NCBI GenBank assembly: GCA_029432815.1
Contig: JAROBA010000026.1
Coordinates: 1-64,000, forward strand
Direction: 5' to 3'
Length of the DNA: 64,000 bases
From: Pontiellaceae bacterium B1224
GTDB lineage: Bacteria; Verrucomicrobiota; Kiritimatiellia; Kiritimatiellales; Pontiellaceae
Part shown: positions 1,506-55,206 of the stretch, piece after piece
Numbering within the stretch: position 1 is the first letter of the stretch
How the letters are laid out: every line of letters begins with the position of its first letter
Notes under the pieces: generated by a model
Databases searched by the model: none
What the model saw: the letters and a program-made list of their open reading frames with translations, nothing else
What the model was told of the DNA's origin: nothing
Made by a program: the position numbers and the translations under genes

Positions 1506-1799
1506 TCAAATAATAAGGGTTCCACTTTCGAGATTTGGGGTTTCTTTACTACCGTGATGCTCGACTTTATTTTCCCAGTTTTTACCGAGAAAGTAGAAAC
1601 GGAGCGAATCGGTTTCCGGTTTATAGAGCCGGAGCAGTTCGGCGCGAAGCGCGGTCCATTGGGCAGGATCGATAAGGCATTCGAAAACCGAATTCTGAAC
1701 GCGCTGTCCATAGTTCAGACAGGTCTTGGCAATGCGGGTGAGTCGCCGCTGTCCGGGTTTGTTGATGGTGGATACGTCATAAGTAATCAATACGAGCAT
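1506..1799 (-). CDS. cas2: CRISPR-associated endonuclease Cas2 (type I-C)
   Basis: A protein of 97 residues beginning MLVLITYDVST, typical of Cas2. It dimerises and, with two Cas1 dimers, forms the spacer-integration complex. The beta-strand with the conserved Asp (ITYDV) is at residues 5-9, and the SLRFYFLGK and SGTLII stretches match the family end. I chose the ATG at 1799 because GGAGG lies six bases upstream; an in-frame TTG at 1820 would add seven residues but has no ribosome-binding site. It follows cas1 by about 30 nt and is the last cas gene before the leader. The length is normal for the family. Confidence 0.97.
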   Translation of the reverse strand: MLVLITYDVSTINKPGQRRLTRIAKTCLNYGQRVQNSVFECLIDPAQWTALRAELLRLYKPETDSLRFYFLGKNWENKVEHHGSKETPNLESGTLII

Positions 1800-1829
1800 G
1801 TTGTCCTCCGGCTTTTTCAAGTTTCCGTC

Positions 1830-2852
1830 TTATTTCCAGATAAACGGCGGGTAGGCTTCGAGATCACCGCGCAGGTGACGGGCGAGCAGCTGGGCCTGCA
1901 GATGCGCAAGCAGACCGACTTTACATTTTTCACCGAGATACGGATGGGTGATCTCTTCCTGCTTCCGCTTCTGCCATGCGGTGAGCAGGGTTTTACGGGC
2001 AGCATCGGACATGGATACCGCACCGCCGGCGGAGTCGTTAAAATCTTTGGATTGGATTTGCTTTCGATTAATTAGCGAGAGCACCAATCGGTCGGCCATG
2101 ACGGCGCGGAATTCTTCCATCAGGTCCAGCGCGAGACTGGGCCGTCCGGGGCGATCGGTGTGGAGATAGCCGACGCAGGGATCGAGCCCGGCACCTTCGA
2201 GCGCGGAACGGCAGTCGTGAACCAATAATGTGTAGGTGAAGGAGAGCAACGCATTGACCGGATCTGTTGGCGGGCGACGGTTCCGTCCGGAAAATTTAAA
2301 CGCCTCATTTTTAGCGGTAATGAGCTCGGGGAAAGCCGCGAAATAGGATGCGGCGGCTTCGCCTTCGTTACCGCGCAGCTCATCGATCGGCATGGGCCTT
2401 TCCAATCGTTGGAGATATTGAGTTAATCGCGACCCCGCAGTTTTGAGCGTGGCATTTTCACCGTGGTCGCGCTGAGCACGGCGCAGGACGGCGCGGGCGT
2501 TGGCCAGTTTGCCAATGAGCATATTCCGGGCAATGGTTGCGGCCGCGCCGGGCTGATCGGCCACACGATATTGCTCGCGGCGCAGCAATACGTTGCCGGA
2601 GACCGGACCCTGAATACGCGCAAAAAATTTTCCGTACTGAGAAAGAAAGCTCACGGCCACATTGCTGTCGGCGCAGTGGTGCATCAGGAACGGACTCATC
2701 GAAATGGCTCCGAAACAGACAATGCCGTCGAGCGTGTGAACCGGCACGCGCAGACGGGTTTCTTTTTCGACATTGACCACCACGGACTGCCCCTCTTTAT
2801 GCAGGTACGCATTTTGGGTGGTGACGTAGAGCGTATTAAGATGCTTCTTCAC
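1830..2852 (-). CDS. cas1: CRISPR-associated endonuclease/integrase Cas1 (type I-C)
   Basis: Cas1 of 340 residues, the metal-dependent integrase that inserts new spacers at the leader end. The N-terminal beta-domain is followed by the helical catalytic domain. Likely metal ligands are Glu163 in NEGEAAASYF, His231 in VGYLHTDRPGRPS, and an acidic residue in the following LALDLMEEF segment. The start is GTG with GGAGG six bases upstream. It overlaps the end of cas4 by 17 nt, so the two are translationally coupled. A one-mismatch copy of the TTCCAA-N3-TTGGAA palindrome lies inside at 2399-2413. Confidence 0.97.
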   Translation of the reverse strand: MKKHLNTLYVTTQNAYLHKEGQSVVVNVEKETRLRVPVHTLDGIVCFGAISMSPFLMHHCADSNVAVSFLSQYGKFFARIQGPVSGNVLLRREQYRVADQPGAAATIARNMLIGKLANARAVLRRAQRDHGENATLKTAGSRLTQYLQRLERPMPIDELRGNEGEAAASYFAAFPELITAKNEAFKFSGRNRRPPTDPVNALLSFTYTLLVHDCRSALEGAGLDPCVGYLHTDRPGRPSLALDLMEEFRAVMADRLVLSLINRKQIQSKDFNDSAGGAVSMSDAARKTLLTAWQKRKQEEITHPYLGEKCKVGLLAHLQAQLLARHLRGDLEAYPPFIWK

Positions 2853-3456
2853 GAAGGGCCTCCTTAAGGTAGGTGGAAACAGAACGGTGTTTTTGCGGCA
2901 TGCAGGTCTCGAACAGGGAACAGGCGGCGCACTTTTTCTCGATGTATTCCGCAGACGGTGTTTTGCCGGATGCCATCAGCTCGTGCAGTCGGCGGGCGGT
3001 TTCCTTGGTTTCGGCGCGCAGTTCGGGCGTAAACTCCACCGGTTGACGGCGGCGCGGCTGCCCGTAGAAAATGGCGCCCTCCCCGATTTCCACATCCAGC
3101 ATTTCCTCAAGGCAAAGCGCCTGTGCACAGAGTTGCACCCAATCGCAATGCGTCGGTTTCGGCCTCCCGCGCTTGTGCTCAACGGGATAGACCTTGTCCG
3201 CATGAAACTCAACCACATCGGCCTTGCCGATCAGCCCCAATTTCAGCGAACGCAACAGCGTGGCATATTCATAGCGAATGCCGTCGCGCGTTTCGTGCTC
3301 CGGCCGATCCACCCGATCGTGCTGCGCACGGCCCTCGGCGGTGAAGCGATTTTCCGTCCACTGCTGCTCCAAATGAATCAGCGCGCACTGGCGCGGACAA
3401 TAAATGTAGTGCTGCAGCGCCGAGAGCGGCAACAGGTCGGAATCGGTGAAGGTCAT
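2836..3456 (-). CDS. cas4: CRISPR-associated exonuclease Cas4 (type I-C)
   Basis: A 206-residue RecB-family nuclease. In type I-C systems Cas4 works with Cas1-Cas2 to choose and trim PAM-containing prespacers. The first cluster cysteine sits in IYCPRQC near residue 20, and the C-terminal iron-sulfur cysteines are in KKCAACSLFETC near residues 176-187. The nuclease core is seen as DVVEFH and YPVEHKRG. Its ATG overlaps the stop of the upstream HEAT/nuclease gene as ATGA, and its 3' end overlaps cas1. This places all four proteins in one coupled translation unit. Confidence 0.96.
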   Translation of the reverse strand: MTFTDSDLLPLSALQHYIYCPRQCALIHLEQQWTENRFTAEGRAQHDRVDRPEHETRDGIRYEYATLLRSLKLGLIGKADVVEFHADKVYPVEHKRGRPKPTHCDWVQLCAQALCLEEMLDVEIGEGAIFYGQPRRRQPVEFTPELRAETKETARRLHELMASGKTPSAEYIEKKCAACSLFETCMPQKHRSVSTYLKEALREEAS

Positions 3457-4319
3457 TTCAACTGCTCCAGTTTTTCGAGCAAGGTTTGCCGCATACGCGG
3501 TTTGTCGTCTGGATAGAGCGAAACCAGTTTCTTGCCCTGTTGCTGATAGAGCTTCTGTTTCTTCAGCATCCCGATCTTGTAGTCAGCCGTATCCATGCCC
3601 CAATACTCCACATAGACATCAAACTCCGGCAGATAAAAATCCGGACGGATGGCATAACCATCCAAAATACGGAAGCGCTCGTCATAGCGGTAGCTGCACT
3701 TTTCCGATGCCAGAATATCGGCAATCATGCGTTCACCTTTCGACTGAACCCACGTGCCATTCTTCGTGCGAATCTTCTTCTGCAGCTCCACCTTGGTTTC
3801 AAAATTGCGCCGATCCAAAAATACCTCGTCGAAACAATGATCGCAAAACGCACGCTGAAACGCCTTTTGCGAACGGACATATTCATCGTGCTCCAGCTCC
3901 ACCCCGCAGCGCTTGCAGCAATGCACCACACTGCGCTCCGCAATTTCCACCGCCGTACGGATCTGCTTGCCCGCCGCTACTACGCTGCGTTTCACATAAT
4001 CCTTCTCCACCGGGCTACGGTAGAGATCGCGCAGATCCGGCAGGGCCTCCTTCGCCGCCGCACCAAATGCGCCAAGCGCCTTCGCCGAATACTGCCGCAC
4101 CTGCGGGTGTTCATCCTGCAGCAACGGGTGCAAAGCCTTCACCGCAGGCGCGGACGGAATAATCTCCGCCAACTTACCCAATGCAGAAGCCGCCAGCCGC
4201 CGCACCAAGGGCGACTCCGAACGCACCAGATCCACCAGCTCACCAAACGCCTCGGCACTCGCACTATTCCCCAGCTCCGTCGCCCGAGCCGCCAGCTTCT
4301 TCTCGTTGGAAATGTGCAT
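3453..4319 (-). CDS. HEAT-repeat, zinc-motif, PD-(D/E)XK nuclease-like protein inside the cas operon
   Basis: A 288-residue protein that is not part of the canonical type I-C gene set. Residues 1-125 are helical HEAT or PBS-lyase-like repeats (SPLVRRLAASALGKL, HPQVRQYSAKALGAFG). Residues 134-162 hold a zinc-type motif, CxxC at 135/138 and 159/162. Residues 190-275 resemble the PD-(D/E)XK domain seen at the end of some superfamily 1 helicases: Glu197 in SKGERMIADIL, Asp227 in RPDFYLP, Glu238 in VYVEYWG, then lysine-rich helices. The start ATG at 4319 has GGAGGGAG upstream. Its stop overlaps the cas4 start (ATGA), while 163 nt separate it from cas7. Domain calls are by eye. The inferred role is adaptation or accessory DNA cleavage; a housekeeping passenger is possible. 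Confidence 0.8.
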   Translation of the reverse strand: MHISNEKKLAARATELGNSASAEAFGELVDLVRSESPLVRRLAASALGKLAEIIPSAPAVKALHPLLQDEHPQVRQYSAKALGAFGAAAKEALPDLRDLYRSPVEKDYVKRSVVAAGKQIRTAVEIAERSVVHCCKRCGVELEHDEYVRSQKAFQRAFCDHCFDEVFLDRRNFETKVELQKKIRTKNGTWVQSKGERMIADILASEKCSYRYDERFRILDGYAIRPDFYLPEFDVYVEYWGMDTADYKIGMLKKQKLYQQQGKKLVSLYPDDKPRMRQTLLEKLEQLK

Positions 4320-4482
4320 TCTATTTCTCCCTCCGACTTATTCCGACTCCCGGGACTCTCCACCGCGTCAGCGATCCCAATCAGACACCGACGCTAAAAA
4401 GGCCATCCACTTTAAACATACCGTTTATTCCCCCGCGCCTGCCGCCGCAATAAGTCGCCCGACGCCATAGAGGTCGCCCGTT
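4320..4482 (-). other. Gap separating effector and adaptation halves of the cas operon
   Basis: These 163 nt between the cas7 stop and the HEAT/nuclease start carry no convincing gene. It is the only sizeable gap in an operon whose other junctions overlap or are under about 30 nt. An internal promoter is possible, but I see no good -35/-10 pair. Confidence 0.6.
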
Positions 4483-5332
4483 TTAAAGCATCTCGATCAG
4501 CTCCACCCCATCCGGTGCATCGCCGACTTTCACATCGTAATCCGCAAACGAACGCGGCGGCTTTTCGCCGCAGTTCTTCTCCACCGTCACCAGATTAAAC
4601 AGCTTCTGCGCCGGGGCATTGCCGAGTTCGGACGCATGCTTGAAGATGATGAGCTTCTGCGGTGCCATTTCGCCGCGCGCGGCCGAGCGATCATGGTCGA
4701 ACATATTAATCAGCGCATTCCAGAACAGTTCGAGGTCGTCCTCGGAAAATCCGGTCTGCTTCGCCAGCGGCGCGGAGATAAAACCGTGCACTTCGTAGAG
4801 ACCGTAGGGAATATAGGTTTTACGCCCCATCGTGCGGTTGTCACCATCTTGGGCCACCGCTTCTTTTCTAGTCTCCACGGCCATTCGCGTAATGCTGGCT
4901 TCCAGTGGGACCACGGGATCGATGCTTTGAGAGAATGCGAATTGAACCGGGCCGCGTACCTGCCCACAATTATTTTCCTTTACACTCATGACAGCTCCAA
5001 ATGTGCGGACATCGAAAAAGTTTTTACACATCCAAGCGCGCGCCTGACTGATTTTTTCCGATTTATCCTTCACGTCCGCCACCGCTTCATATGCGGGCTG
5101 GCGGCGTTCGGTAAGAATGCCCTTTTCCTTTACATAGATATTAAAAGGCGTTTGGTCTTCCTTCACGAGTTCGACATAGTTACGCACTTTGCGTTTGAGG
5201 CAAACATCGGTCGTGATGCCGTGCCCGGTTTCGGGATCAATGCGCGGGAGGTTCCCTCCGTCGGGATCGCCGTTGGGGTTGCCGTTCTTAATATCGAATA
5301 ACAGTACGAATTCATAACGGTTTTTGATGGGT

Positions 5333-5340
<8 letters not shown>
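4483..5340 (-). CDS. cas7: Cascade backbone protein Cas7 (Csd2), type I-C
   Basis: A 285-residue Cas7/Csd2 protein, the repeated subunit that lines the crRNA in the type I-C surveillance complex. The start [27 protein letters not shown] is characteristic, with the glycine-rich [10 protein letters not shown] loop followed by the Pro-Arg-Asp and [14 protein letters not shown] segment of the family. The C-terminal half carries the helix with [27 protein letters not shown]. Its ATG overlaps the cas8c stop by eight bases. The length is normal and nothing is truncated. Confidence 0.96.
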
Positions 5341-9884
<4,544 letters not shown>

Positions 9885-16416: not shown

Positions 16417-17163
16417 ATGCAGAATCATCCTGCCCAACCGAATCATTTCAGCGTCTCGCGTTCCGAGCTGCCGGCTTGCCGGCCGAAGCCTTGGCGAAGG
16501 CAGGCGAAGGCAGCGTTTACGCTCGCCGAGCTGCTGGTGGTGATTGCCATCATCGGCATCATGCTGGCTATTGCGATCCCGATGCTCGCGAACATCAGCG
16601 GGGAAACTCCGTTGGAGGCGGCGGCCCATTCCGTACATTCCGCTGCGAAGATGGCGCGGCAGCATGCGGTGGCCAACAAGCAGCCCGCCTATCTGGTTTT
16701 TCACGACGAATTCACCGACCCGGAACTGGCCTACCGGGCCTATGCGGTCTTTACGATCGACATCCACTCCCCGCCCGTTCAGGCGTCTGACGGCTATTTT
16801 ATCAAAGACTGGGAAATACTGCCTGTCGGTGTGGTGTTCGATCCCGACATCAATCCCTCCGAAAATCTATTCAACGTGTCCGGGGCCGAAGGCTGGGAAG
16901 GCGGTTTGAATAAAAACAATCTACTGAAGATTGAAGGCGTTTCAGCACCCTTGGTGGTGTGCGGTTTTAAACCCAGTGGTGAAGTGGCATCGGCCACGCA
17001 CCAGATTCATTTGGCGGAAGGCGCAGTGATCAACGGGCAGCCCCGCATCACCGTTCCCGGCGGTGGCCAGCAAATCCATTTTACAACCCTTGGAAAAAGC
17101 AGGCTGCTGGATACGCGCTATGAGGATTCGGGACAACTCATCATTCTGGATGAGGTGCCATGA
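16417..17163 (+). CDS. Prepilin-like protein (GspH / Verru_Chthon D-like) with extended leader
   Basis: A 248-residue protein with a type IV prepilin N-terminus: FTLAELLVVIAIIGIMLAIAIPML, with the +5 Glu, would be cut before the Phe by prepilin peptidase. The leader is unusually long (34 residues), and -1 is Ala instead of the usual Gly. Residues 19-33 (PACRPKPWRRQAKA region) are encoded by a GC-rich palindromic repeat at 16470-16513, so the leader looks modified by a repeat insertion. The rest is a beta-rich pseudopilin body. Its stop overlaps the next start (ATGA). First gene of a four-gene cassette. The start codon is uncertain because no clear ribosome site is seen. Confidence 0.8.
   Translation: MQNHPAQPNHFSVSRSELPACRPKPWRRQAKAAFTLAELLVVIAIIGIMLAIAIPMLANISGETPLEAAAHSVHSAAKMARQHAVANKQPAYLVFHDEFTDPELAYRAYAVFTIDIHSPPVQASDGYFIKDWEILPVGVVFDPDINPSENLFNVSGAEGWEGGLNKNNLLKIEGVSAPLVVCGFKPSGEVASATHQIHLAEGAVINGQPRITVPGGGQQIHFTTLGKSRLLDTRYEDSGQLIILDEVP
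16470..16513. repeat. Intragenic palindromic repeat within the prepilin leader
   Basis: Contains GCCGGCTTGCCGGC and AGCCTTGGCGAAGGC. The second half also occurs between genes near 27786-27800 as AGCCTTGGCAAAGGC. It adds an in-frame PKPWRRQAK-type peptide to the prepilin leader. Confidence 0.65.
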
Positions 17164-17639
17164 AACAGCCGATTCCAATCTTTGGAAAAAAGCAAAAGCC
17201 GGGCTTCACCCTCATTGAAATCCTGCTCGCCCTGCTGGTGGTTACGATCGGAGTGGTCACGATGGCAGGTCTGCTGGGCAGCTCGCTTGATGCCGGCGAC
17301 AAGGCCAGCAAGGACCTGCATGTCGTGAGCTTCGCGGACATGGTGCTCAACCACTGCCACGCGGAAGATTGGGAAAACCTGATGCCCGGCACACTGACCC
17401 TGAAGGACTATGCCGGCAATTCCACCACCCTGACGACCGGTACGACCGACCATTTCTCCAGCGAAGCTGTCGGCAAGGACGGCCGGTCGATCGAGCGCTT
17501 TACTGTTTCATACCAGCTCAATATTCAGAAAAGCGGTCGCGTGAAAACCGTGACGCTGCGCGTTTGGCCCGGATATGATATTAACGGCACACCGCGCATC
17601 TTCCACACCGAAATCTACGACTGGAAGAAGAGCGAATGA
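17160..17639 (+). CDS. Prepilin-like protein (GspI/PilV / Verru_Chthon B-like)
   Basis: A 159-residue pseudopilin. The leader MKQPIPIFGKKQKPG is followed by FTLIEILLALLVVTIGVVTMAGLL, with Gly at -1 and Glu at +5 as required by prepilin peptidase. The ALLVVTIGVVTMAGLLG pattern is characteristic of GspI/PilV and of the Verru_Chthon B family. The ATG overlaps the previous stop and its own stop overlaps the next start, so the four genes are translationally coupled. A perfect palindrome (TTCCAATCTTTGGAA, 17173-17187) encodes the PIPIFGK part of the leader. Confidence 0.87.
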   Translation: MKQPIPIFGKKQKPGFTLIEILLALLVVTIGVVTMAGLLGSSLDAGDKASKDLHVVSFADMVLNHCHAEDWENLMPGTLTLKDYAGNSTTLTTGTTDHFSSEAVGKDGRSIERFTVSYQLNIQKSGRVKTVTLRVWPGYDINGTPRIFHTEIYDWKKSE

Positions 17640-18433
17640 GCACCATGAAAAACAGACGCGGATTCACCCTGCTCGAGATCGTGGTCTCCATCACCCTGCT
17701 GGCCCTTATGGCATTGATGCTGGCGCGCATCTTCACGGAAAGCACCCGCGCCGTCGGTCAAGGCCGCGAGCGGGCCCTGCTCGATGAAACCGCGCGCTTC
17801 GTGCTCAATAATCTGGAGCAGGACATCAGCCAGGCTCTGATCCGAACCAATGTGGCCTTTCGGGTGGAACCCGGTACCGCCGGCGATACGCTCTATTGCA
17901 TTTCCCCCGGCATTCGCCGGCAAACGGAAACCTATCCGCGCGACACGGCCCCGATCCAGTTCCGGACCGTGCGCAGCACCGTGGGCCTATCCGCCCTGAA
18001 CGACCGGATCGTTTTTGAATATGCTTCATCCGCAACCGCCACCACCAAACGGGCCCTGAAAAAACTGATCGACTACTCCAACATCTATCAACCGCTCGAT
18101 CTGTTGAAATCGTCGGGCCAGGTAAACTATACCGAGCGGCTGGACTCTGATTCCGGCGTGCTGAATCAGGCGAGTCTCACGTTTCTGGATTTCGACATCA
18201 ATGGCGATCCCGACAGTAACTACGGATCGAACCAACTGCCGGACCCAGACGACCCTCCCCGCTTTGTGGATGTGCACATCGGGCTGGTTTCGTCTAAAAA
18301 TATGCAGCAGGCCATGCGGCTCTATTCCGCGCAGGGCGATGCCGTTGCGCTCGATTATCTGAGCAAACGGGAGCAGGTTTATACCCGCCGCATTTTTATG
18401 CCCAATACGGGATTTACCGGAGCGGGGTTCTGA
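17636..18433 (+). CDS. Prepilin-like protein (GspJ / Verru_Chthon C-like)
   Basis: A 265-residue pseudopilin with short leader MSTMKNRRG and helix FTLLEIVVSITLLALMALMLARIF (Gly -1, Glu +5). The following ESTRAVGQGRERALLDETARFVLNNLEQDISQAL segment is an amphipathic continuation typical of GspJ-like minor pseudopilins. A second ATG nine bases downstream (MKNRRG) is an equally reasonable start. It overlaps the previous gene by four bases and is followed within two bases by the large fourth member. Confidence 0.86.
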   Translation: MSTMKNRRGFTLLEIVVSITLLALMALMLARIFTESTRAVGQGRERALLDETARFVLNNLEQDISQALIRTNVAFRVEPGTAGDTLYCISPGIRRQTETYPRDTAPIQFRTVRSTVGLSALNDRIVFEYASSATATTKRALKKLIDYSNIYQPLDLLKSSGQVNYTERLDSDSGVLNQASLTFLDFDINGDPDSNYGSNQLPDPDDPPRFVDVHIGLVSSKNMQQAMRLYSAQGDAVALDYLSKREQVYTRRIFMPNTGFTGAGF

Positions 18434-18434
18434 A

Positions 18435-20735
18435 ATGAGCAGATGTGATTCCAATAAAAGCGGTGCCGCCCTGCTGATTGCATTGGGCTTTCTCGCCCTG
18501 CTGACTTTCCTGATTGTGGCCTTCTCCATCCAGACGCGCAACGAGCGCATTGCCGGCAGGGACTACCTCTCCGATGCCCGCGCCAAACAGCTGCTGCATA
18601 CCGCACTGACCCGGGCCATGCTGGATATCGATTCCACCTTCAGCACAAACTATCCCGACCGCCTCGCCATCGGCTCACTCGGCAACACCGGTGTTCCAAT
18701 GGTTGGAACCATTCATTTCAGCACAGAAGAACAGTATATTCCGCTGGGCAATACGGCCATTGCCTCCGCCTATCAAACCGCACGGGATGCCGCTCAGTGG
18801 GAAACGATTACGGTTTCCGATGCGGCCGATTCGGTGGCTGTCGGCCGCATGGGCTATGTCATCATCAACACCTCCGGGCTGCTGGATGCCAATTCCGTCG
18901 GCGGGCTGAGCGGCACCAGCATGCTCGAGCAACGTACTTCCGGACTTTCACCCCGGGAGATCCAGCTTGATCCCGATCTGCTTCCGGAGCTGACTGCCGT
19001 GGCCGAGCTGATCCAAGCCGATGGAACGAAGATCGAAACCGATGACGGAAATCTGGCGTTTATCCACAACCGGGAAACCGCGTGGCATCGCTTTGAATCA
19101 CTGCGGGATGTTAAAACACTCAACAGCAACGGCCGGGGTGGCGTGATGGAAGGCGATCTTTCGGCCTTCAGCACCTTCTCGCTTTTTCCCTCCAACAACT
19201 TCCAATCTCTGGAACTCACTGAGACGCTTGATCCAGCACTGCTCGAAGCGAAGCTGGTGGTGGACTGCGGCCTAAGCCAACCGGAAGCCCAAGCCGTGGT
19301 TGAAAACTATTTCGACTATATCGATGCCGACGATATCCCGCGCAACCTCCTGGGGTCCAGCCCGGAATCCGTTCCCATGATTAATGAAATATGGATGGAT
19401 GAGCTCAGCTTTTCCCAGACCGCGAACGATGAAACCAATGTGCGATACCGCGTCTCCGGCCGGCTCCATTTTGAAACGTGGTATCCGTTTGAAGACGAAC
19501 CGCCCTCCGATTTTTCACCGGAGGTGAAGGCCTTAGACCCTGAAGTCGGGCCGGATGCCGTTGAAATTATTACCGGAGAAGAATTTATCGGGCAGACCGA
19601 TTACATGACCGTCGTCTGTTCCTACAGCGACAGCTCCTCCAAAGCGTTCATCCTGCCGTTGGCGGAATTGGAAGAAGGCCCCGTGAGCGATGGAAAATTC
19701 AGTACCTATTCGTATGAATTCAGCTATGATGAACGCGTTTTGCTGGAAGTCCCCTTTCAAGTCAATCCGCCCCCCATGCCGGAGACACTGCACTTTATGG
19801 AAGACAGTATAGAGCTCACCCACTCTGTCGGAACACTGGATGCCGTCTACGAGTTCAGCCTATCAACCCCGTTTTTAGAAAACGGCGCGCATCCGGCGAT
19901 TTATGCCAGCTGCGTGGATCCGCGTATCAACTCCGAATTCACCAATACGGATCACTGGCAGCTTTCCGAAACCGACTCGGCAAATGCCATCAACGAACTG
20001 GATGACTGGGGCGAGGAATCTGATCTGAACAACAAAAGCAGCATCCAGTTATACACCCGTAATGCGCCCATGCAGAATGCTGCGGAACTGGGCCACCTTT
20101 CACTTGGCACGCCATGGCGGACCGTACGGTTGTATGGTGGCGACGCTGCTTCGGAGCTGCATCCGGTACTGGATCATTTTCATACGGGCGAAGCCCTCCG
20201 CGATGAGCCGGCACGGCCCGGACTCATTAACCGCAACAGTCCGCACCGTGCGGTGCTGGCCAGCGCCTTCGTCGGCGCCCCGATCCAGCTTGAATTTGAA
20301 ACCGGCCCGACAGACGCACGCATCACGATCGCTCAGGCTCAAGCCCTCGGCGAAAATCTGGCGGCGTATTCGGCCGAACGTATCCGCACCTCGCCCGGCC
20401 AAATTGGAAACGCCCTGTCAAACAATGTGCCGGACTGGGAAAACTGGACCGATGCGCAGAAAGAATCGATCGTGGCCAACACCTACCGGCTGTTCGGCGA
20501 ACGCGACTCCCTTTACACCATTTTTCTTGTGGCGCAGGCCGGAACGGACGCAGATGAAAACGGTCGGATTGCCGACGACGAGGTCCGCGGAACCCAGCAG
20601 GCGGTGGTGACGGTATGGCGCGATCCCGTCGACCAAACCGCCGCCATCGTTTTCTACGGGCTCACGGACACGCTTCGCAGCAGCATCAACGGCGGCGAAA
20701 CCTGGAGCACCCTGCTTGAAGCATTCCATCCCTGA
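18435..20735 (+). CDS. Large GspK-like / Verru_Chthon A-like secretion-cassette protein
   Basis: A 766-residue protein with one N-terminal membrane helix (GAALLIALGFLALLTFLIVAFSI, residues 10-32) preceded by a short polar leader. It lacks the FTLxE motif and starts SGAALL, as in GspK/PilX-type and Verru_Chthon A proteins. The next segment (RNERIAGRDYLSDARAKQLLHTALTRAM) matches the helical region after the membrane anchor in such proteins. The large remainder is probably periplasmic. I could not detect a known catalytic domain. It is the last gene of the cassette. Palindromes are at 18694-18708 (perfect) and 19200-19214 (one mismatch). Confidence 0.8.
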   Translation: MSRCDSNKSGAALLIALGFLALLTFLIVAFSIQTRNERIAGRDYLSDARAKQLLHTALTRAMLDIDSTFSTNYPDRLAIGSLGNTGVPMVGTIHFSTEEQYIPLGNTAIASAYQTARDAAQWETITVSDAADSVAVGRMGYVIINTSGLLDANSVGGLSGTSMLEQRTSGLSPREIQLDPDLLPELTAVAELIQADGTKIETDDGNLAFIHNRETAWHRFESLRDVKTLNSNGRGGVMEGDLSAFSTFSLFPSNNFQSLELTETLDPALLEAKLVVDCGLSQPEAQAVVENYFDYIDADDIPRNLLGSSPESVPMINEIWMDELSFSQTANDETNVRYRVSGRLHFETWYPFEDEPPSDFSPEVKALDPEVGPDAVEIITGEEFIGQTDYMTVVCSYSDSSSKAFILPLAELEEGPVSDGKFSTYSYEFSYDERVLLEVPFQVNPPPMPETLHFMEDSIELTHSVGTLDAVYEFSLSTPFLENGAHPAIYASCVDPRINSEFTNTDHWQLSETDSANAINELDDWGEESDLNNKSSIQLYTRNAPMQNAAELGHLSLGTPWRTVRLYGGDAASELHPVLDHFHTGEALRDEPARPGLINRNSPHRAVLASAFVGAPIQLEFETGPTDARITIAQAQALGENLAAYSAERIRTSPGQIGNALSNNVPDWENWTDAQKESIVANTYRLFGERDSLYTIFLVAQAGTDADENGRIADDEVRGTQQAVVTVWRDPVDQTAAIVFYGLTDTLRSSINGGETWSTLLEAFHP

Positions 20736-39899: not shown

Positions 39900-40446
39900 T
39901 AAGCAAAACTTCAGAGGACGGCAGCAGCGCGAGCCGCAGGTTCGGATTAACCATCGTATCCGCGTTCCGGAAATCCGCGTCATTGATGCAAACGGCGATC
40001 AGCTCGGCATCATGAAAACAGGCGATGCGTTGCGTCGTGCCCAGGCATATGGAATTGATCTGGTGGAAATCTCCCCCACCGCCAAGCCGCCCCTATGCAA
40101 AATCATGGATTACGGCAAACACAAATACGACCAGGAGAAGAAGAAGAAAGAGCAGAAGAAGCACCAGGTGCAGACCAAGCTCAAAGAGGTCAAATTCCGT
40201 GTCAACGTGGGCGACCACGACTACGACACCAAAATGCGTAATCTTCGCAAATTTATTGAACATGGCGATCGTGTAAAACTGTCGCTCATGTTCCGCGGGC
40301 GTGAAAATGCGCACCGTGAATTGGGATTGGAAGTTCTCCAGCGCGTCATTAAAGACACCGAAGATATTACTTCCGTTGATCAGGCACCGCGGCTGCAGGG
40401 CCGCTTCATCAATGCGGTCCTCGTACCCAAGAAAAAAGTTAAATAA
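39895..40446 (+). CDS. infC: Translation initiation factor IF-3 with ATT start codon
   Basis: A 183-residue IF-3, which keeps ribosomal subunits apart and checks start-codon choice. The full protein begins at the rare ATT at 39895 with GGAGG six bases upstream, giving SKQNFRGRQQREPQVRINHRI before the usual RVPEIRVIDANGDQLGIM. The first ATG in frame (40012) would delete the essential N-terminal segment. The ATT overlaps the thrS stop (ATTAG). An AUU start is the classic basis of IF-3 autoregulation in enterobacteria. IF3-N and IF3-C domains joined by a lysine-rich linker (KKKKEQKKHQ) are complete. Unusually, rpmI and rplT do not follow. Confidence 0.96.
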   Translation: MSKQNFRGRQQREPQVRINHRIRVPEIRVIDANGDQLGIMKTGDALRRAQAYGIDLVEISPTAKPPLCKIMDYGKHKYDQEKKKKEQKKHQVQTKLKEVKFRVNVGDHDYDTKMRNLRKFIEHGDRVKLSLMFRGRENAHRELGLEVLQRVIKDTEDITSVDQAPRLQGRFINAVLVPKKKVK

Positions 40447-40486
40447 ACAACGCACAAAACAACCACCGACCGGGAGTTATTCTACA

Positions 40487-43306
40487 GTGAAAACTCATTT
40501 ATTGCGGTACCCGTTGGTCAGTTGCAAAAAGAAGGTGGTGCTCTTCGCGGCACTCACCTTTTTTTTATGCCTGTCACGGACCCAGGCACAAACAAATACC
40601 GCCACCGGCACGGTGTATGGAAGTAATATCAATGGTCCAGCCATCACCTCCTTCAACGATGGATCAGCGGATCTCGCGGTTCAGAATCCAGCGACCACAC
40701 AGATTACTTTCGACAAGGAAGTCGATGGTTTCATTTCGATCAGTAATAACTTCAGTTCATTCGACCTGCTCGCAACCGGCGGAACGCTTACAGGATCGGA
40801 GACCCCCACGTTACATATAACCGGAGGAACCAACCTGTATATTACAGGAGGCACCTTTACCGGTGGCTCAGAAACGGTTTTTTCCAATGATTGGAACGGC
40901 GCCATTGGCGGTTTGATCTCGGGAACGGCGACCACGGTTGTTTCCGGAACCACGTTCACTGGAGGAACGCTGACCATCATGGACAGTACAACCGGCGGCC
41001 CACCCCCGATTCCCGGCCAAACCAATTCAACGACTTACCAAACGCCGGTTGCCCAGGGCGCAGACGGGTTTTATGTGGAAAACGGCTACCTGCTTCTGAC
41101 GGATGCCTCTTCCATGACCGGCGGGGATGGGCAGGAAGCCGATGCCACGCGTAACGATGTCTTCGCCTCGGGCGGAAACGGGCTCTCATTAATTAACAGT
41201 TCAGCTGTAATCAGCAATGGAACCTATCAAGGCGGGAATGGAGGCATTGCAGAGGTTTCCGCAAGCTACTCCGCTTATGCTCAGGGCGGGAGCGGGCTGT
41301 ATGCCTCCAACTCCACTGCGGTGATTTATACCGGCACCTTCACCGGCGGTGCCGGCGGAGAGGTTAACGGCGAAGTTGCGGCAGGCGGCTCCGGACTTGT
41401 TGGCCTCGACGGCTCCTCTATCACAAACATCGGCGGCTCCTTCACCGGCAGCGCAGATATTCCCGCCGTTCAGCTTTATAACAGTGATCTTACTTCGCTG
41501 GGCGGTCTTTATACGGGCGGCTTACTCAGCTCAACCACGGGAAGCGGCACGAACACACTTAGCCTGCTGGGCGGTACGTTCGATTCTATCTCCTTCATGA
41601 ACGATTCCTCGAATGGTGTGCAATTCGTCACGGCGAGTAATCTGGTCGTTTCTTCCGGGATTTATCAGGATGGAGGAAGGATTGAAATCAACAATATCGA
41701 AGATTCCGGCTTTATGAACCTCGAGGTTGAAAGCGGCTCTATGATCTTTACCGAAGACCTGACTCTGACAGGATCTCTGGCCCTCAACTCCGCAGACAGC
41801 AAAGCTGTTTTTTTCCAGGGGTTGGAAGTTGCAAACAATGCGACGGTCGATCTCGGCATAGGACAAATTGAAACCGCAGGTGCTTTTAATTTAATGAGCG
41901 GGGCTGCGCTGAACCTCACCATCGTCACAAACCTGAGCGGTTCCATCACCGCCGGATCCGCCGACTTTTCAACCAATGCTTCTTTGCTGGTGGATGCCAG
42001 CCTGGCCGGTTTTACCTCCGGCCTATCCACCAACACATTCCTTGTCACCACCGGTGGAGTCAGTGGGTTTAATACCAATGATGTACTGACGGAAGTGCTG
42101 GTTTCGAACAATACCAACGTGCTGGGCAGGACCTCCTTCAGCGGATTCCTGATCAATGCGAACAATCTATCGGCGCTTTTCAGCACGGCCACCCTCAGCA
42201 ACTACTGGAATGCAACCGGCAAACTGGCTGTTCTGGCAAATGAACTGGAAGTCCTCGCACCGGCTGAAATGAATGCTGCCATCAACAGCCTCGGTCCTGA
42301 TGCTTCAAAATCGGCCATCGAGGAAACCTATTTTACTACACCAAATACTTTTCAAGTTGCAAAACAGGGCCTGGATGCCGCCGTCGGTCTCTCTCTCTCC
42401 CGAGGTGCCGAATTCCGTGAGCAGCTCCTGCTGCCCGCCGGAACTAAAGGTCCCGCTTCCGCCGTAAACAACGATTGGCGTTTCTGGGCAAAATTCTATG
42501 GTCAGTTTTACAGCCGCGGGCAGGATGGGCTGAATCCGGAATACGATGCTGACATCCACGGCGGTGTTGTTGGAATGGACAAGAGTTTCGGCAATCTCCT
42601 GGTGGGCATCAGCGGAGGCATGGGAAACTATTCCATCACAGCAGACTCCGACGCCGATCAGGGTATCGATGCCTATCAGGGCTCTCTCTATGCCACCTAC
42701 GGAAAAGGCCATGCGTACATCGATGCCGGTTTGGCCTATGGCATGAATCAGGTGCAATCCCAAACAGCCTACCCATTCATTCTTGACGGCGAATTCGACG
42801 CTCAACTGATCAGCGGCTATCTCGGCGGCGGCTGGGGTTTCGGAGTTCCAACCATTGGAACTCTTCTCACTCCGGTTGCGGCGGTGCGGTATACGCTGTA
42901 CCAGCAGGACCCCTACACCGAAACCAGCACCACGGCCGTCCCCCGCTCCTTCGATGAATTTGATGCCGATTCATTTTCCGGCTCAATCGGTTTAAATGCA
43001 GCCTCGCTGAACAACATTTCGCTCAGCACGTTTGCTTTCAAACTGGAGGGTCGCGCACACTGGATACGCGAATTTAATCCGCAGCCCGGCGATCTCTCCT
43101 ACCAGCTGGTTGGCGGAAACAGCAGCTATCTGATTGCCTATCCCTATCTGGATGAAGATACTATCCAACTCGGTTTCGGCTTCATCTTCTTTAATAATAT
43201 GAAGCGGTCTCAAAAAAATGTGTTGCTACGGTTGGACTTTGATGAGCTGTTCGGCGAAGATTTCAACTCGCATAACCTGTCAGCAAAAGTTATCTACGCG
43301 TTTTAA
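40487..43306 (+). CDS. Autotransporter (type V secretion), first of two
   Basis: A protein of 939 residues. The N-terminal signal (KKKVVLFAALTFFLCLSRTQA, residues 14-34) follows a short basic extension. The passenger, to about residue 655, is rich in Gly, Ser, Thr and Asn with repeated TGGTFTGG-like beta-solenoid units. The C-terminal translocator barrel begins near residue 663 (WRFWAKFYGQFYSRGQDG) and ends VIYAF with terminal Phe. I choose GTG 40487, with GGGAG ten bases upstream, because ATGs further upstream lie inside infC. Passenger function unknown; adhesion is typical. Palindromes: perfect at 40882-40896 and 42846-42860, one mismatch at 41813-41827. Confidence 0.9.
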   Translation: MKTHLLRYPLVSCKKKVVLFAALTFFLCLSRTQAQTNTATGTVYGSNINGPAITSFNDGSADLAVQNPATTQITFDKEVDGFISISNNFSSFDLLATGGTLTGSETPTLHITGGTNLYITGGTFTGGSETVFSNDWNGAIGGLISGTATTVVSGTTFTGGTLTIMDSTTGGPPPIPGQTNSTTYQTPVAQGADGFYVENGYLLLTDASSMTGGDGQEADATRNDVFASGGNGLSLINSSAVISNGTYQGGNGGIAEVSASYSAYAQGGSGLYASNSTAVIYTGTFTGGAGGEVNGEVAAGGSGLVGLDGSSITNIGGSFTGSADIPAVQLYNSDLTSLGGLYTGGLLSSTTGSGTNTLSLLGGTFDSISFMNDSSNGVQFVTASNLVVSSGIYQDGGRIEINNIEDSGFMNLEVESGSMIFTEDLTLTGSLALNSADSKAVFFQGLEVANNATVDLGIGQIETAGAFNLMSGAALNLTIVTNLSGSITAGSADFSTNASLLVDASLAGFTSGLSTNTFLVTTGGVSGFNTNDVLTEVLVSNNTNVLGRTSFSGFLINANNLSALFSTATLSNYWNATGKLAVLANELEVLAPAEMNAAINSLGPDASKSAIEETYFTTPNTFQVAKQGLDAAVGLSLSRGAEFREQLLLPAGTKGPASAVNNDWRFWAKFYGQFYSRGQDGLNPEYDADIHGGVVGMDKSFGNLLVGISGGMGNYSITADSDADQGIDAYQGSLYATYGKGHAYIDAGLAYGMNQVQSQTAYPFILDGEFDAQLISGYLGGGWGFGVPTIGTLLTPVAAVRYTLYQQDPYTETSTTAVPRSFDEFDADSFSGSIGLNAASLNNISLSTFAFKLEGRAHWIREFNPQPGDLSYQLVGGNSSYLIAYPYLDEDTIQLGFGFIFFNNMKRSQKNVLLRLDFDELFGEDFNSHNLSAKVIYAF

Positions 43307-47611: not shown

Positions 47612-50600
47612 ATGAAAATACATAGAATAGACGGACAGACTCTACTCACAATTTCCACGCTATTGACGACCTGCGCCCTGAGCAGCCAGGCTCAGGACCT
47701 TATCTATAATTCACCTACCGGATCGGTCACAACGATTACTTCGCCAACCAATGCCGCGCGTCTTTTTGTCGGAGTTGATGAGGCCAATAATCACCTGCAC
47801 CTCGAGAATGGAGCTCTTCTATCCGTATCCCTTTTAGCAGAAGTCGGCCAGCAATCCTCAGCGACCAACAGTCTGCTTTCTGTTGAAAACGGTGGACAGA
47901 TGGTCGTTGGAAATGCCGACACCAACAATCTGCCTGCCAGCGGAATTCTGGTTGGCGACACCTCCCGAACCGCTGAGATGAAGGTCGATCATGATTCACG
48001 CATCATCACAGATAACCTCTACGTGGGAGCCGGTTCGAACGAAACGGGAAAAGTGAGTGCCGAAAACGGTGGCAGCATTGAAGTGACCGGCGATGTGGTT
48101 GTCGGGGCCATTGACAGCCAAAACAATGTAATTTCGCTTCAAGACAATGGTTCACTGCTCATTGATAATGCCGCCAATCTCCAAATCGTAAATGACCCCG
48201 CTGCAACGGAAGAACTGAATGAAGTTGTTGTCGGCTCGGGCAGTTCTCTACTTATTAAAGGTGATTTGTATGCCCCGGACCTGATCAACAAAGACGGCCT
48301 GAACTTTGAGTCCGGTGCCGCACTAGGTGTTGGAGGCGAGCTGACCACGGTTGATAATGCCATCAATAATGGATTAAATATCCTGTTGGATGATTCCCTG
48401 TCAACCAATCATACCGCCCAATGGACTGCTTCATCGATTGATGTCGGCACTTCCACAGACAGCAATTCTCTCACGGTTAAAAATGGCGCACAGGCAACCT
48501 CTTCCGGTTTTGTATATGTTGGGAAAGACAGCAGTGCAACGGATAACAGCATCATCATCACCGGATCCAATTCCACCTTCACCGCTCAGGAAAAAGTATT
48601 CATCGGAGCCAATGGATCACGGAATGCGCTGGAAATTCTGGAAGGGGCTTCGGCAACAATTCATGCCGACCTGAAGTTAGGCTCATCTGCAGGTGCAGCC
48701 AACAACACGCTGGAGGTTGACGGAACGAACAGCAGCTTGACCGTGAATGCCGATGTATTCATTGGTGTCAGTGGAGCGAACAATGCAATGACCGTATCCG
48801 ATGGTGCATTGGCCACATTCAGCGGGGACCTGGATATCGGCCAAAAAGGAAATGATAATAGTGTCACCGTGAATAACGGTGAACTGACTACTGATACTAT
48901 CACCGTTGGATCTGAAGGCGACAGCAATGACCTCATTGTGACAGGCACCAACGGAGTGTTAAATGCTGCCAGCGTCGTCATCGGCGATGAAGGCGATTCA
49001 AACACCTTTAAGGTGAGCGGCGGAGCGCAGGTCGAAATTACCGATACCCTCTCAATCGGAAATGAAGGCGACAGCAACTACATCCAGCTGAATGACAGCA
49101 ATTCAACCGTTCGGGCTGGCTCCGATGTTGTGCTCGGGGCAAACGGAGATAACAACAAAATCTATATCTATGGAGGAACGCTTGAAGCCGGAGCCGATGT
49201 TTATGTCGGCTATACCAACGAAACCGAAAAGAGCACCGTTCAGATTTCCGGAACCGATGCAAAACTTGAAGTTGCGAAAGATTTATTCATCGGCTCGGAT
49301 GTCAGTTCAAATAACTCGGTGGTTGTTCAAAACGGAGGGGTACTTCAGGTCAACGGTCGCACCAATCTGGTCTTCGGCACCGCCACAAACAACACCATCA
49401 CCATCGGAAACAACGGCTCACTGAAAACAACCGATTGGGATGCTTCCATTATTGAATCCAACCTAACCTTCGAAACCGGTGCGGGGCTTTGGTTAACCGG
49501 TGAATACACGGGGACCAACTCACTTGAAGGAAGCCTTAACCTCACACTGGATGGTACCGGTGCATCATGGGTTACAACCGATATGCTGGTCGGTATCGAC
49601 ACCGATAATAATTCACTCACGATCACCAACGGAGCGTCAGCTCACGCCATGGGTAATCTCACAATTGGCGAAGCTTCCGAGGGAAATTCGATCTCCGTTG
49701 GCGGCTCCGGTTCTTTATTGCAAGTGGACAATAATCTCTCCGTTGGCACAGAAGACAACGGACCAATTTACTCACTGGTTGAGAATGATGTATTTGTGAC
49801 GGCCGGAGCCAGCATTTTGGTTGGAGGCAATGCAGCACTCTATTCGGGAGCTACCCTGACCGTTGACTCCAAATCTCAGATGGATGTCCAGGGTAATTAC
49901 AGCCAGGACCGCTTTTCCTCACTCAATATCGGTATTAGCAGCAATCAAACGGCACCGAATCTCGTGGTGGGCGGCTCCGCTGATTTTACGAGTTCCTACA
50001 ATGCAGAGGAAAATTCAATCATCCGAATCTTTAATGAGGGAATCGGCGAATCCAATACCATTGCAATCGTGCAGGCCAATGAAATCACACTGGATGGAAA
50101 CAAGGCAACCGGCGGTGCATTCGAAGCTAATATTGCATCAAACTCCCTGCTCGGATTCACCGTAACCATCACCAATAATGTGTCAGACTATTTCATTGTC
50201 TTAAGCGACTTTTTGGAACGCAATATCGGAGAAGCAGGAGAACTGAACGGTCAGCTGCTCGATGTTTCCATTGCAATCGAAGACATGGCAACTGCCGGCA
50301 ATTCTAATGCCACGGCCATGATCGACATTATCTCTCAGCTCGACTCCTCCCGGATTCAGCCGGTAATGGATTCCTATTACGGCGAAAAGGAAAGCGCGCT
50401 TCCGGTCCTGAACGTATTCAACCTCGGCATCCAAAATGTTGCAAATCAGGTCACGATGCGGGCCGACAATACCCGCAGCCGCAATGGTATGGCCTCTTCC
50501 ACCGCAGATTTCGACAAACCGGAGGGTCCTTCCGGCCCCCATGAATCCGGGCAGGAACTGCAAGGATGGATCAGCGCTTACGGCACAAAAGGTTCGGAAA

Positions 50601-51364
50601 GTGCAACAGGTGGATATCAGAGCTATGATGTCAACATGAGCGGCTTCATGATTGGAGCCGATGCCGCGTTGAACGAAAACTGGCTTCTGGGCTTCGCCGG
50701 CGGTTCCGGCTCGGCAACTACCGACGAAGCCGATGGCGGGGAAATGGATACCAAAACCATCTATGCTTCCGGCTACGCCTCCCTGGGAACCAAAGAGTGG
50801 TTTGCCGATATGGGCTTCATCTACGGCAACAACAAAGTGGATGCAACCCTCGGAACAACATTCGATACCAAAGCAGATTATTCCTCCCAGAATGTCGCGC
50901 TGTTTTTCGGGGGCGGAAAAGAAATTGCGGGCAGCTATCTGATTTTCACCCCCGAACTTTCCTTCCTCGGAAACTTTTACATGCAGGAAAGTTACGAGGA
51001 AGAATCCTCAAATGCCGTTGGTCGGCAGGTCGACAGTATGAATACATTCAACCTGCAGAGCACACTGGGTTCGAGCATGGCGATGTATCTAGGTATGGGC
51101 AACGTGATATTCAAACCCGAGCTGCGGGCTTACTGGGTGCACGACTGGATGGGCGACGACGAAACGGTCAACTATTCGCTGATCGGCGGAACCTCCTCCT
51201 ATGCCATGCAGCTCCAGGCTCCGGAAGAAGACATTCTGAAACTTGGAATCGGTTCTTCCGCCAAGTGGGGCGATTATCTGGAAATACGACTCGATTTGGA
51301 TGGCCGACTCGGTTCCGACTATCGCGACTACACCCTGCTCGGCTCGCTCCGCTACCAGTTCTAA
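47612..51364 (+). CDS. Autotransporter with T5SS/PEP-CTERM-type repeats, second of two
   Basis: A 1250-residue autotransporter. The signal peptide is near residues 1-28 (LTTCALSSQAQ). The passenger (about residues 30-985) is built from repeats of 35-40 residues of the form VGxxGxxNxLxVxxGA, e.g. VGSEGDSNDLIVTGTNG, IGDEGDSNTFKVSGGA, IGNEGDSNYIQLND and LGANGDNNKIYIYGGT. They resemble the T5SS/PEP-CTERM-associated repeat. The translocator barrel starts near residue 986 (LQGWISAYGTKG) and ends LRYQF. AAGGA stands 11 bases before the ATG. No perfect palindrome lies within its 3.75 kb. Confidence 0.9.
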   Translation: MKIHRIDGQTLLTISTLLTTCALSSQAQDLIYNSPTGSVTTITSPTNAARLFVGVDEANNHLHLENGALLSVSLLAEVGQQSSATNSLLSVENGGQMVVGNADTNNLPASGILVGDTSRTAEMKVDHDSRIITDNLYVGAGSNETGKVSAENGGSIEVTGDVVVGAIDSQNNVISLQDNGSLLIDNAANLQIVNDPAATEELNEVVVGSGSSLLIKGDLYAPDLINKDGLNFESGAALGVGGELTTVDNAINNGLNILLDDSLSTNHTAQWTASSIDVGTSTDSNSLTVKNGAQATSSGFVYVGKDSSATDNSIIITGSNSTFTAQEKVFIGANGSRNALEILEGASATIHADLKLGSSAGAANNTLEVDGTNSSLTVNADVFIGVSGANNAMTVSDGALATFSGDLDIGQKGNDNSVTVNNGELTTDTITVGSEGDSNDLIVTGTNGVLNAASVVIGDEGDSNTFKVSGGAQVEITDTLSIGNEGDSNYIQLNDSNSTVRAGSDVVLGANGDNNKIYIYGGTLEAGADVYVGYTNETEKSTVQISGTDAKLEVAKDLFIGSDVSSNNSVVVQNGGVLQVNGRTNLVFGTATNNTITIGNNGSLKTTDWDASIIESNLTFETGAGLWLTGEYTGTNSLEGSLNLTLDGTGASWVTTDMLVGIDTDNNSLTITNGASAHAMGNLTIGEASEGNSISVGGSGSLLQVDNNLSVGTEDNGPIYSLVENDVFVTAGASILVGGNAALYSGATLTVDSKSQMDVQGNYSQDRFSSLNIGISSNQTAPNLVVGGSADFTSSYNAEENSIIRIFNEGIGESNTIAIVQANEITLDGNKATGGAFEANIASNSLLGFTVTITNNVSDYFIVLSDFLERNIGEAGELNGQLLDVSIAIEDMATAGNSNATAMIDIISQLDSSRIQPVMDSYYGEKESALPVLNVFNLGIQNVANQVTMRADNTRSRNGMASSTADFDKPEGPSGPHESGQELQGWISAYGTKGSESATGGYQSYDVNMSGFMIGADAALNENWLLGFAGGSGSATTDEADGGEMDTKTIYASGYASLGTKEWFADMGFIYGNNKVDATLGTTFDTKADYSSQNVALFFGGGKEIAGSYLIFTPELSFLGNFYMQESYEEESSNAVGRQVDSMNTFNLQSTLGSSMAMYLGMGNVIFKPELRAYWVHDWMGDDETVNYSLIGGTSSYAMQLQAPEEDILKLGIGSSAKWGDYLEIRLDLDGRLGSDYRDYTLLGSLRYQF

Positions 51365-54041: not shown

Positions 54042-54083
54042 AACATCACTCCATCATGTAGACTTCAGATCGATCTATTCGGA

Positions 54084-55202: not shown

Positions 55203-55206
55203 CCCG

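Follow-up and report, generated by a model that had tools for sequence, protein, structure and literature searches.

A four-gene pilin cassette in a Pontiellaceae genome, probably the minor pilins of a MUL2-type pilus machine

Type IV filament machines are assembled along broadly shared lines: pilins of the GspH, GspI, GspJ and GspK types prime assembly, with a GspK protein that lacks Glu5 at the tip, GspE and GspF power the process, PilM and its partners connect to the secretin, and a PilD-type peptidase processes the prepilins. Here, we examine a cassette of four genes of this sort—termed D, B, C and A in their order along the DNA—in a stretch of 64,000 nucleotides (the window; positions 1 to 64,000 of contig JAROBA010000026.1, assembly GCA_029432815.1) from Pontiellaceae bacterium B1224, probably a member of the genus Pontiella (class Kiritimatiellia). 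The machine that it resembles most closely in its wider setting is MUL2 of Akkermansia, comprising amuc_1099, 1100, 1101 (PilM) and 1102, the order of which is kept in aquatic Akkermansiaceae and for which uptake of labelled fucoidan has been described (PMC13174399). That account names 1099–1102 plus a channel protein, and no minor pilins, GspE or GspF (PMC13174399). Amuc_1098 and its cluster are treated in PMC5332112, and the mul genes of Akkermansia are reported to be needed for polysaccharide or mucin uptake (PMC13174399; PMC12418764).

In our view, the cassette products are likely to serve as minor pilins in a type IV pilus-like machine of the same kind as MUL2 of Akkermansia; this machine would attach to polysaccharides and probably take them up. 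The parts of this proposal differ in strength: membership of the cassette in such a machine is very likely, a role in the tip complex is probable, and attachment to or uptake of glycans, argued by analogy, stands at roughly even chances. What was observed directly is which genes are present, how they are linked in relatives and in which genomes they occur together. Within the window, the products of D, B and C all exceed the Pfam N_methyl cut-off of 21.2 bits (Table 1), D with a cleavage motif of KA/AFTLAE (slash, cleavage site) and B with TIGR02523 PilV as its top NCBIfam match (1e-8, below cut-off). The N-terminus of A consists of a single hydrophobic helix preceded by Gly, and no Glu occupies mature position 5; Ile15 is found instead, invariant in 13 of 13 sequences. 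Absence of Glu5 is a reported trait of GspK and PilX (PMC7541494). The original prediction had described three pseudopilins resembling GspH, GspI and GspJ together with a large, single-helix GspK-like protein in the order D-B-C-A, and the open reading frames (ORFs), N_methyl scores and helix of A agree with that description. Its statement that the genes overlap start-to-stop holds for D/B and B/C (4 nucleotides each) but not for C and A, which lie one base apart. It had also placed no secretin, ATPase or inner-membrane platform nearby; in line with this, the GspF, GspE and secretin families, searched across the whole genome (5.38 Mb in 204 contigs), gave no match on the window's contig, C123, PilM not having been searched as a family. 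Hereafter, C-numbers denote contigs of the window's genome, G-numbers genomes and L-numbers the genome stretches examined.

The same gene order recurs in relatives. In a sample of 43 genomes of the order (Kiritimatiellales level, the window's genome included), A matches 14 at E <= 0.001 and the cassette is present in 13; G042 was excluded from the latter count because its match covers 70 residues only and falls in a locus that reads as an operon of a type II secretion system (T2SS; L076). All 12 relatives fetched with A keep D-B-C-A, with A identities of 30–50%, a recurrence that makes the cassette more than a chance arrangement, and there is one full-length A per genome in the order. Across the phylum, an A profile search matched 127 of 288 genomes, including 83 of the 97 belonging to the class. 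We then read 20 class-wide neighbourhoods: the 18 with the highest A scores, apart from one tied genome that was passed over, and a pair selected for distance, one of which lies outside the class. Of these, 15 have D-B-C-A (D being weak in three, L104, L116 and L122), and four have B-C-A-D (L105–L108, all of family f7, whose fifth member, L114, shows D-B-C-A); the last, L113, is a contig fragment in which A alone was matched. L117 and L122 have an additional pilin-like gene that separates C from A.

Rather than a standard T2SS operon, the setting that the original prediction had named as its counter-case, the cassette occupies a MUL2-type pilus operon in four relatives (L112, L120, L218 and L219), in a single run with MUL2 genes. 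L218 and L219 were picked for the closeness of A and the 1100-like gene and are not a random sample. On one strand of L218 (G056), the genes read E-PilT-E-F-D-B-C-A-Amuc_1102-PilM-1100-1099-secretin, the first ATPase being cut by the end of the stretch; PilT scores 457.5 bits there (cut-off 319.1), and GspF is of the type found on contig C119 of the window's genome. L219 (G216) runs from D-B-C-A through the MUL2 set to the secretin; the 7 kb before this run contain neither an ATPase nor a GspF gene. Downstream of the cassette, L112 and L120 have a five-gene MUL2 run with small ORFs interspersed (two of them, in L112, between A and the Amuc_1102-like gene), and the order of the run equals Amuc_1102-1101-1100-1099-1098—colinear, as in L218 and L219, with the Akkermansia cluster. 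The first gene of this run in L112 matches Amuc_1102 (PDB 7dsz) at E 9.7e-7, and the second gene of the run is PilM by Pfam. The 1100-like protein had no match in PDB by sequence and only chance matches by profile (best E 0.87), so that its link to Amuc_1100 is made by gene order and length; likewise, the 1099-like protein was assigned by place and length, not by sequence match to Akkermansia records. In addition, GspF and pilins precede the cassette in L110, L116 and L122, and this GspF is 48–55% identical to that of C119, as against at most 39% to the five other GspF proteins of the window's genome that were compared. Two further stretches carry machine genes in other combinations: ATPases, GspF and the MUL2 set with the cassette absent in L237 (G190), and an ATPase, PilT (over cut-off), another ATPase and a C119-type GspF near a contig end in L287 (G001), the final 500 bases containing no cassette. 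A PilT family ATPase thus lies inside an E-E-F run at L218:728-1804 and L287:5518-6579, a placement which suggests that the fibre may be retractable.

In the window's genome, and this is where it differs from Akkermansia, the MUL2 set lies on a different contig from the cassette. The machine is split: candidate major pilins on C111, the cassette in the window, an E-E-F group on C119 and the MUL2 set, from PilM to secretin, on C127. The guess in the original prediction that the driving machinery is encoded elsewhere is supported. The parts on C119, C127 and C111 have counterparts joined to the cassette in relatives. The 1100-like protein (N) of L112 and L120 has its sole match in the window's genome on C127, the 1099-like protein (P) matches C127 only, TSP3-repeat pieces aside, and the secretin, compared with 21 proteins of the window's genome, finds that of C127 as its best match (L120) or its only one (L112). 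An Amuc_1102-like candidate in the window's genome (L062:14187-14699) is 27% identical to that of L112. Two pilin genes lie upstream of the cassette in L105, L107, L108, L109 and L115 (in L115 with two small genes between the two), and these match best, in the same order, an orphan pair on C111 (L136:7991-8437 and 7481-7984); for this comparison, the first 25 residues from the motif were removed and the pilins of nine loci of the window's genome were used, those of C124 and C125 not included. Both members of the C111 pair have GspG as best match (4e-15 and 1e-12, below cut-off), and PilT is also encoded at C111. The remaining filament loci of this genome, with gene names assigned partly by eye, comprise two T2SS (C121 and C11), each with its own HIJK-like genes, a D-E-F-G cluster with pilins on C110, a type IVa pilus (T4aP) on C139 and a Tad system on C150, with others besides. 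The scatter is not an assembly effect, since in G012, a single contig of 4.1 Mb, the cassette lies at 0.40 Mb, MUL2 at 3.48 Mb and GspF at 3.93 Mb. As a separate observation, the window itself contains three tandem paralogous ORFs with signal-peptide-like starts (Table 1), 37–44% identical to one another and with no Pfam match; two of the three contain a secretin-like stretch, 36–37% identical over about 90 residues to the MUL2 secretin of C127.

The cassette and the proposed machine also occur together. Within the order's 43 genomes, and counted only where the match extends past the TSP3 repeat, the 1099-like protein is found in all 13 that have the cassette (in G004 via a C-terminal match of 78 residues) and in G001. 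A C119-type GspF of at least 66% identity occurs in the same 13 and G001, with at most 39% in other genomes (threshold 1e-30). Both are thus present in 13 of 13 cassette genomes against 1 of 30 others, with a Fisher p of 3.8e-10 for each and of 2.7e-8 within the genus, kinship uncorrected. Over the 97 genomes of the class, A and the 1100-like N are found together in 75, A alone in eight, N alone in six and neither in eight (p 1.6e-4), an association which adds to the likeness to MUL2. PilT does not track the cassette: it exceeds its cut-off in 35 of the 43 genomes, of which 22 lack a cassette. A tree of PilT from these 35 genomes shows at least six cassette changes, which the 1099-like protein follows except in G001. 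A 59-residue 1099-like piece at G008:C43:3487-3666, left uncounted, belongs to a genome with neither the cassette nor a C119-type GspF and is perhaps a remnant of loss.

Several observations weigh against the proposal. In the first 20 neighbourhoods, the cassette touches MUL2 in two and a C119-type GspF in three, only five of 20 in total. In L104 and L117, the distance from the cassette to T4aP-type genes is no more than about 7 kb; these include a pilB-like gene (58% identity to its C139 counterpart in the window's genome) and pilA-, pilR- and pilC-like genes (the last 57%); in the genome of L117, MUL2 is located on the same contig, at the other side of the cassette (L221). The eight class genomes with A and no 1100-like protein and the six with the reverse also count here; among the former is G041, in which the match may be to a T2SS GspK, and among the latter a complete run from PilM to the secretin is seen in G125, G198 and G284, whose fetched stretches contain no cassette. 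G001, a genome 79% complete, has the MUL2 set and GspF with no cassette found. Outside the class, a match to A or TIGR02600 occurs in 34 of 46 N-positive genomes as against 109 of 191 overall, which is weak (p 0.01), and the PilT tree is poorly resolved, with three long branches, giving one independent pair on well-supported branches and six on the best tree. No carbohydrate-binding fold was recognised in A in the fold searches. Finally, two papers on Pontiella-type strains make no mention of pili, secretion or selfish uptake.

Two known filament systems in the same genome offer other homes for the cassette, which shares with T2SS GspH-I-J-K and T4aP PilX-type sets the H-I-J-K order, the prepilin motifs and a GspK/PilX-like tip protein without Glu5, and differs from them in the length of A, its extra beta-sandwich and a position outside T2SS and T4aP operons in the loci read. 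That it is the FimU-PilV-PilW-PilX set of the ordinary T4aP on C139, standing apart as in Pseudomonas and Neisseria, appears improbable. Stand-alone T4aP minor-pilin clusters exist in other bacteria, the best match of B is PilV, the T4aP loci of the window's genome, G012 and G017 show PilA and no minor pilins in the gene calls, and the neighbourhoods of L104 and L117 described above point the same way; however, PilT exceeds its cut-off in 22 of the 30 cassette-free genomes of the order, G017 has a T4aP locus (L126) and no cassette match, the T4aP loci L124 and L125 of the sister family include their own minor pilins, and a separate minor-pilin-like trio on contig C122 of the window's genome (L135) supplies candidate T4aP minor pilins. 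The PilT comparison and the MUL2 linkage in four relatives disfavour filing the cassette with T4aP. The assignment to spare T2SS minor pseudopilins, which either of the two complete T2SS (on C121 and C11) would drive, draws on the type and order of the four genes and on the presence of two such loci. It is quite unlikely in our view: both loci have their own HIJK-like genes, the GspF adjoining the cassette in relatives is of a type distinct from both T2SS GspF proteins, G042 has a T2SS locus (L076) and no cassette match, and linkage of the cassette to a T2SS operon was not seen in the window's genome or in the relatives read. Two of the loci mentioned deserve a description in their own right. 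In L124 and L125, four pilin-like genes lie between pilM and pilB, the last encoding a K-like protein of about 596 residues, and the C122 trio (L135:6927-9483) consists of two prepilins and a third protein, about 500 residues long, whose start looks PilX-like by eye; these are possibly T4aP minor pilins.

The original prediction had likened the cassette to Verru_Chthon A-D (TIGR02596, TIGR02598, TIGR02599 and TIGR02600), with which it shares three prepilins, one large GspK-like protein and the phylum. All four proteins do match these models, but each falls far short of the cut-off (bits against cut-off: D, 38.8/70; B, 20.7/51.4; C, 28.0/256.5; A, 18.4/332.3), and the alignment of A to TIGR02600 is confined to positions 1–50 of 1296. 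As a control, the T2SS GspH on C121 scores 40.8 bits on TIGR02596, above the score of D, so the match of D to this model is not diagnostic. The TIGR02600 cut-off is exceeded in 7 of 288 genomes of the phylum, 156 matching at E <= 0.001, with sub-cut-off matches mostly N-terminal only among the matches listed; weak N-terminal matches of this kind mark family f36 (many species; it may be Akkermansiaceae). Among seven loci above this cut-off, each read with just 1500 bases of flanking DNA, the order is A-B-C in five, B-C-A-D in one and A-C-D in one—unlike the D-B-C-A of the window—and the A profile matches about the first 65 residues in three of them (in L190, together with a weak C-terminal stretch) and nothing in four. 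On the scores, the length of A, gene order and the C121 control we thus reject this filing, and the identity suggested at the outset is not supported; the cassette is a relative of the Verru_Chthon kind and not, in the strict sense, a member. A full-text search of open-licence papers for Verru_Chthon found none. These loci also bear on the idea that the cassette is an exchangeable tip set serving several type IV filament machines, as multi-copy Verru_Chthon cassettes might be: the seven genomes over the TIGR02600 cut-off have two such loci apiece, and six of the seven have an Amuc_1100-like protein. We give this little chance, since cassette genomes of the order have a single full-length A each, and its presence or absence matches that of the 1099-like protein and its GspF in all genomes except G001.

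Structure models were made for C (with AlphaFold2) and for A. The C model (pLDDT, the predicted local distance difference test, 76.4) is closest in PDB to Thermus Tt1219 (E 2.4e-3, probability 0.99, template modelling score 0.35–0.37, root-mean-square deviation about 10), a protein which its authors relate most closely to XcpW/GspJ (PMC5131608). The A model (pLDDT 83.9, predicted template modelling score 0.78) has a pilin helix at residues 9–68, helices within about 205–296, an added beta-sandwich at about 312–480 and a further C-terminal part. A fold search with this model against PDB gave no match at E <= 0.001, GspK not being among the matches listed; VIA-align gave a best Z of 5.9, the matches listed falling mostly on residues 312–515 and comprising GH2 side domains, fimbrial subunits and unrelated beta-sandwiches, from which we draw no function. 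By sequence, A had one chance match only in PDB (E 0.42), and its profile, aligned by hhalign to the GspK proteins of the window's and related genomes, covered 73 columns, all within the first 75. We considered a loop resembling an EF-hand in the C-terminal region of A (705–716) as a hallmark and dropped it, since a strict pattern finds the loop in 6 of 31 sequences.

The cassette is flanked upstream by a pyruvate phosphate dikinase (PpdK)-like gene on the opposite strand (named by eye) and downstream by a polyprenyl synthetase gene. Judged by eye, a polyprenyl synthase-like gene follows the cassette in 10 of the 12 relatives and a PpdK-like gene precedes it in 9 of the 12. Elsewhere, the window holds a CRISPR-Cas-like gene run that encloses a gene for a HEAT-repeat protein, and two nearby genes for autotransporter beta-domain proteins (Table 1).

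Table 1. Cassette genes and other features of the window
Feature	Coordinates	Strand	Description	Length (residues)	Remarks
gene D	16417..17163	+	GspH/FimU-like minor prepilin	248	TIGR02596 38.8 bits (below cut-off); N_methyl 26.4 bits
gene B	17160..17639	+	GspI/PilV-like minor prepilin	159	N_methyl 23.0 bits
gene C	17636..18433	+	GspJ/PilW-like minor prepilin	265	N_methyl 31.0 bits
gene A	18435..20735	+	GspK/PilX-like large tip protein	766	
CRISPR-Cas-like gene run	1506-9884	-			Cas3 helicase by Pfam; remaining Cas names by eye
HEAT-repeat protein gene	3453-4319				within the CRISPR-Cas-like run
autotransporter beta-domain protein	40301-43306	+		1001	
autotransporter beta-domain protein	47612-51364	+		1250	
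three tandem paralogous ORFs	53016-56352	-		341, 372, 381	

From these parts, we infer how a machine of the MUL2 kind could work, including the order of assembly, the position of the tip, glycan binding, uptake and retraction. A PilD-type peptidase would cleave the prepilins, after which D, B and C, together with A, would assemble on the inner-membrane platform as a complex that primes the fibre and forms its tip. The major pilins—possibly the candidate GspG-like pair of C111—would then be inserted beneath this complex, driven by GspF and the two GspE/PilB-type ATPases of C119. PilM and the Amuc_1100- and Amuc_1099-like proteins would guide the filament, which would exit via the dedicated secretin of C127. 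A, large and without Glu5, would cap the fibre and probably make contact with the substrate, so that the fibre, by analogy with Akkermansia, might attach to polysaccharide and help to move the polymer toward the periplasm. Retraction is perhaps driven by PilT, which lies in the operon in G056 and G001 and at C111 in the window's genome. A further Akkermansia locus, MUL1 (Amuc_0543-0550), was considered as a counterpart of the cassette and dropped; the pilus is tied to MUL2 in PMC13174399. Among the open-licence papers listed for Verrucomicrobia pseudopilins, for Verrucomicrobia prepilin cassettes and for Amuc_1102 with minor pilins, none connects such a cassette with MUL2, judged by titles and the openings of abstracts.

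A more far-reaching version of this scheme is speculative, and we hold it to be rather doubtful. It would have the cassette belong to a retractable, polysaccharide-harvesting pilus that is old in Verrucomicrobiota and ancestral to the Akkermansia mucin pilus: the beta-sandwich of the GspK-like tip would grip the polymer, PilT-driven retraction would pull it through the secretin to the periplasm, and Verru_Chthon cassettes would be exchangeable tips of the same machine. In Pontiella, the genes would have drifted into four loci, and the machine would have escaped notice for that reason.

With the assignment to a MUL2-type machine, an orphan cassette gains a machine, and candidates are suggested for the ATPases, the platform and the minor pilins left unnamed in the MUL2 account. 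Pontiella isolates are described as degrading sulfated polysaccharides; a glycan-binding pilus fits this lifestyle and is not proven by it. Whether Verrucomicrobiota use a pilus to import large glycans of the sulfated or mucin type becomes a testable question, and the multi-copy Verru_Chthon cassettes of the phylum may have the same explanation.

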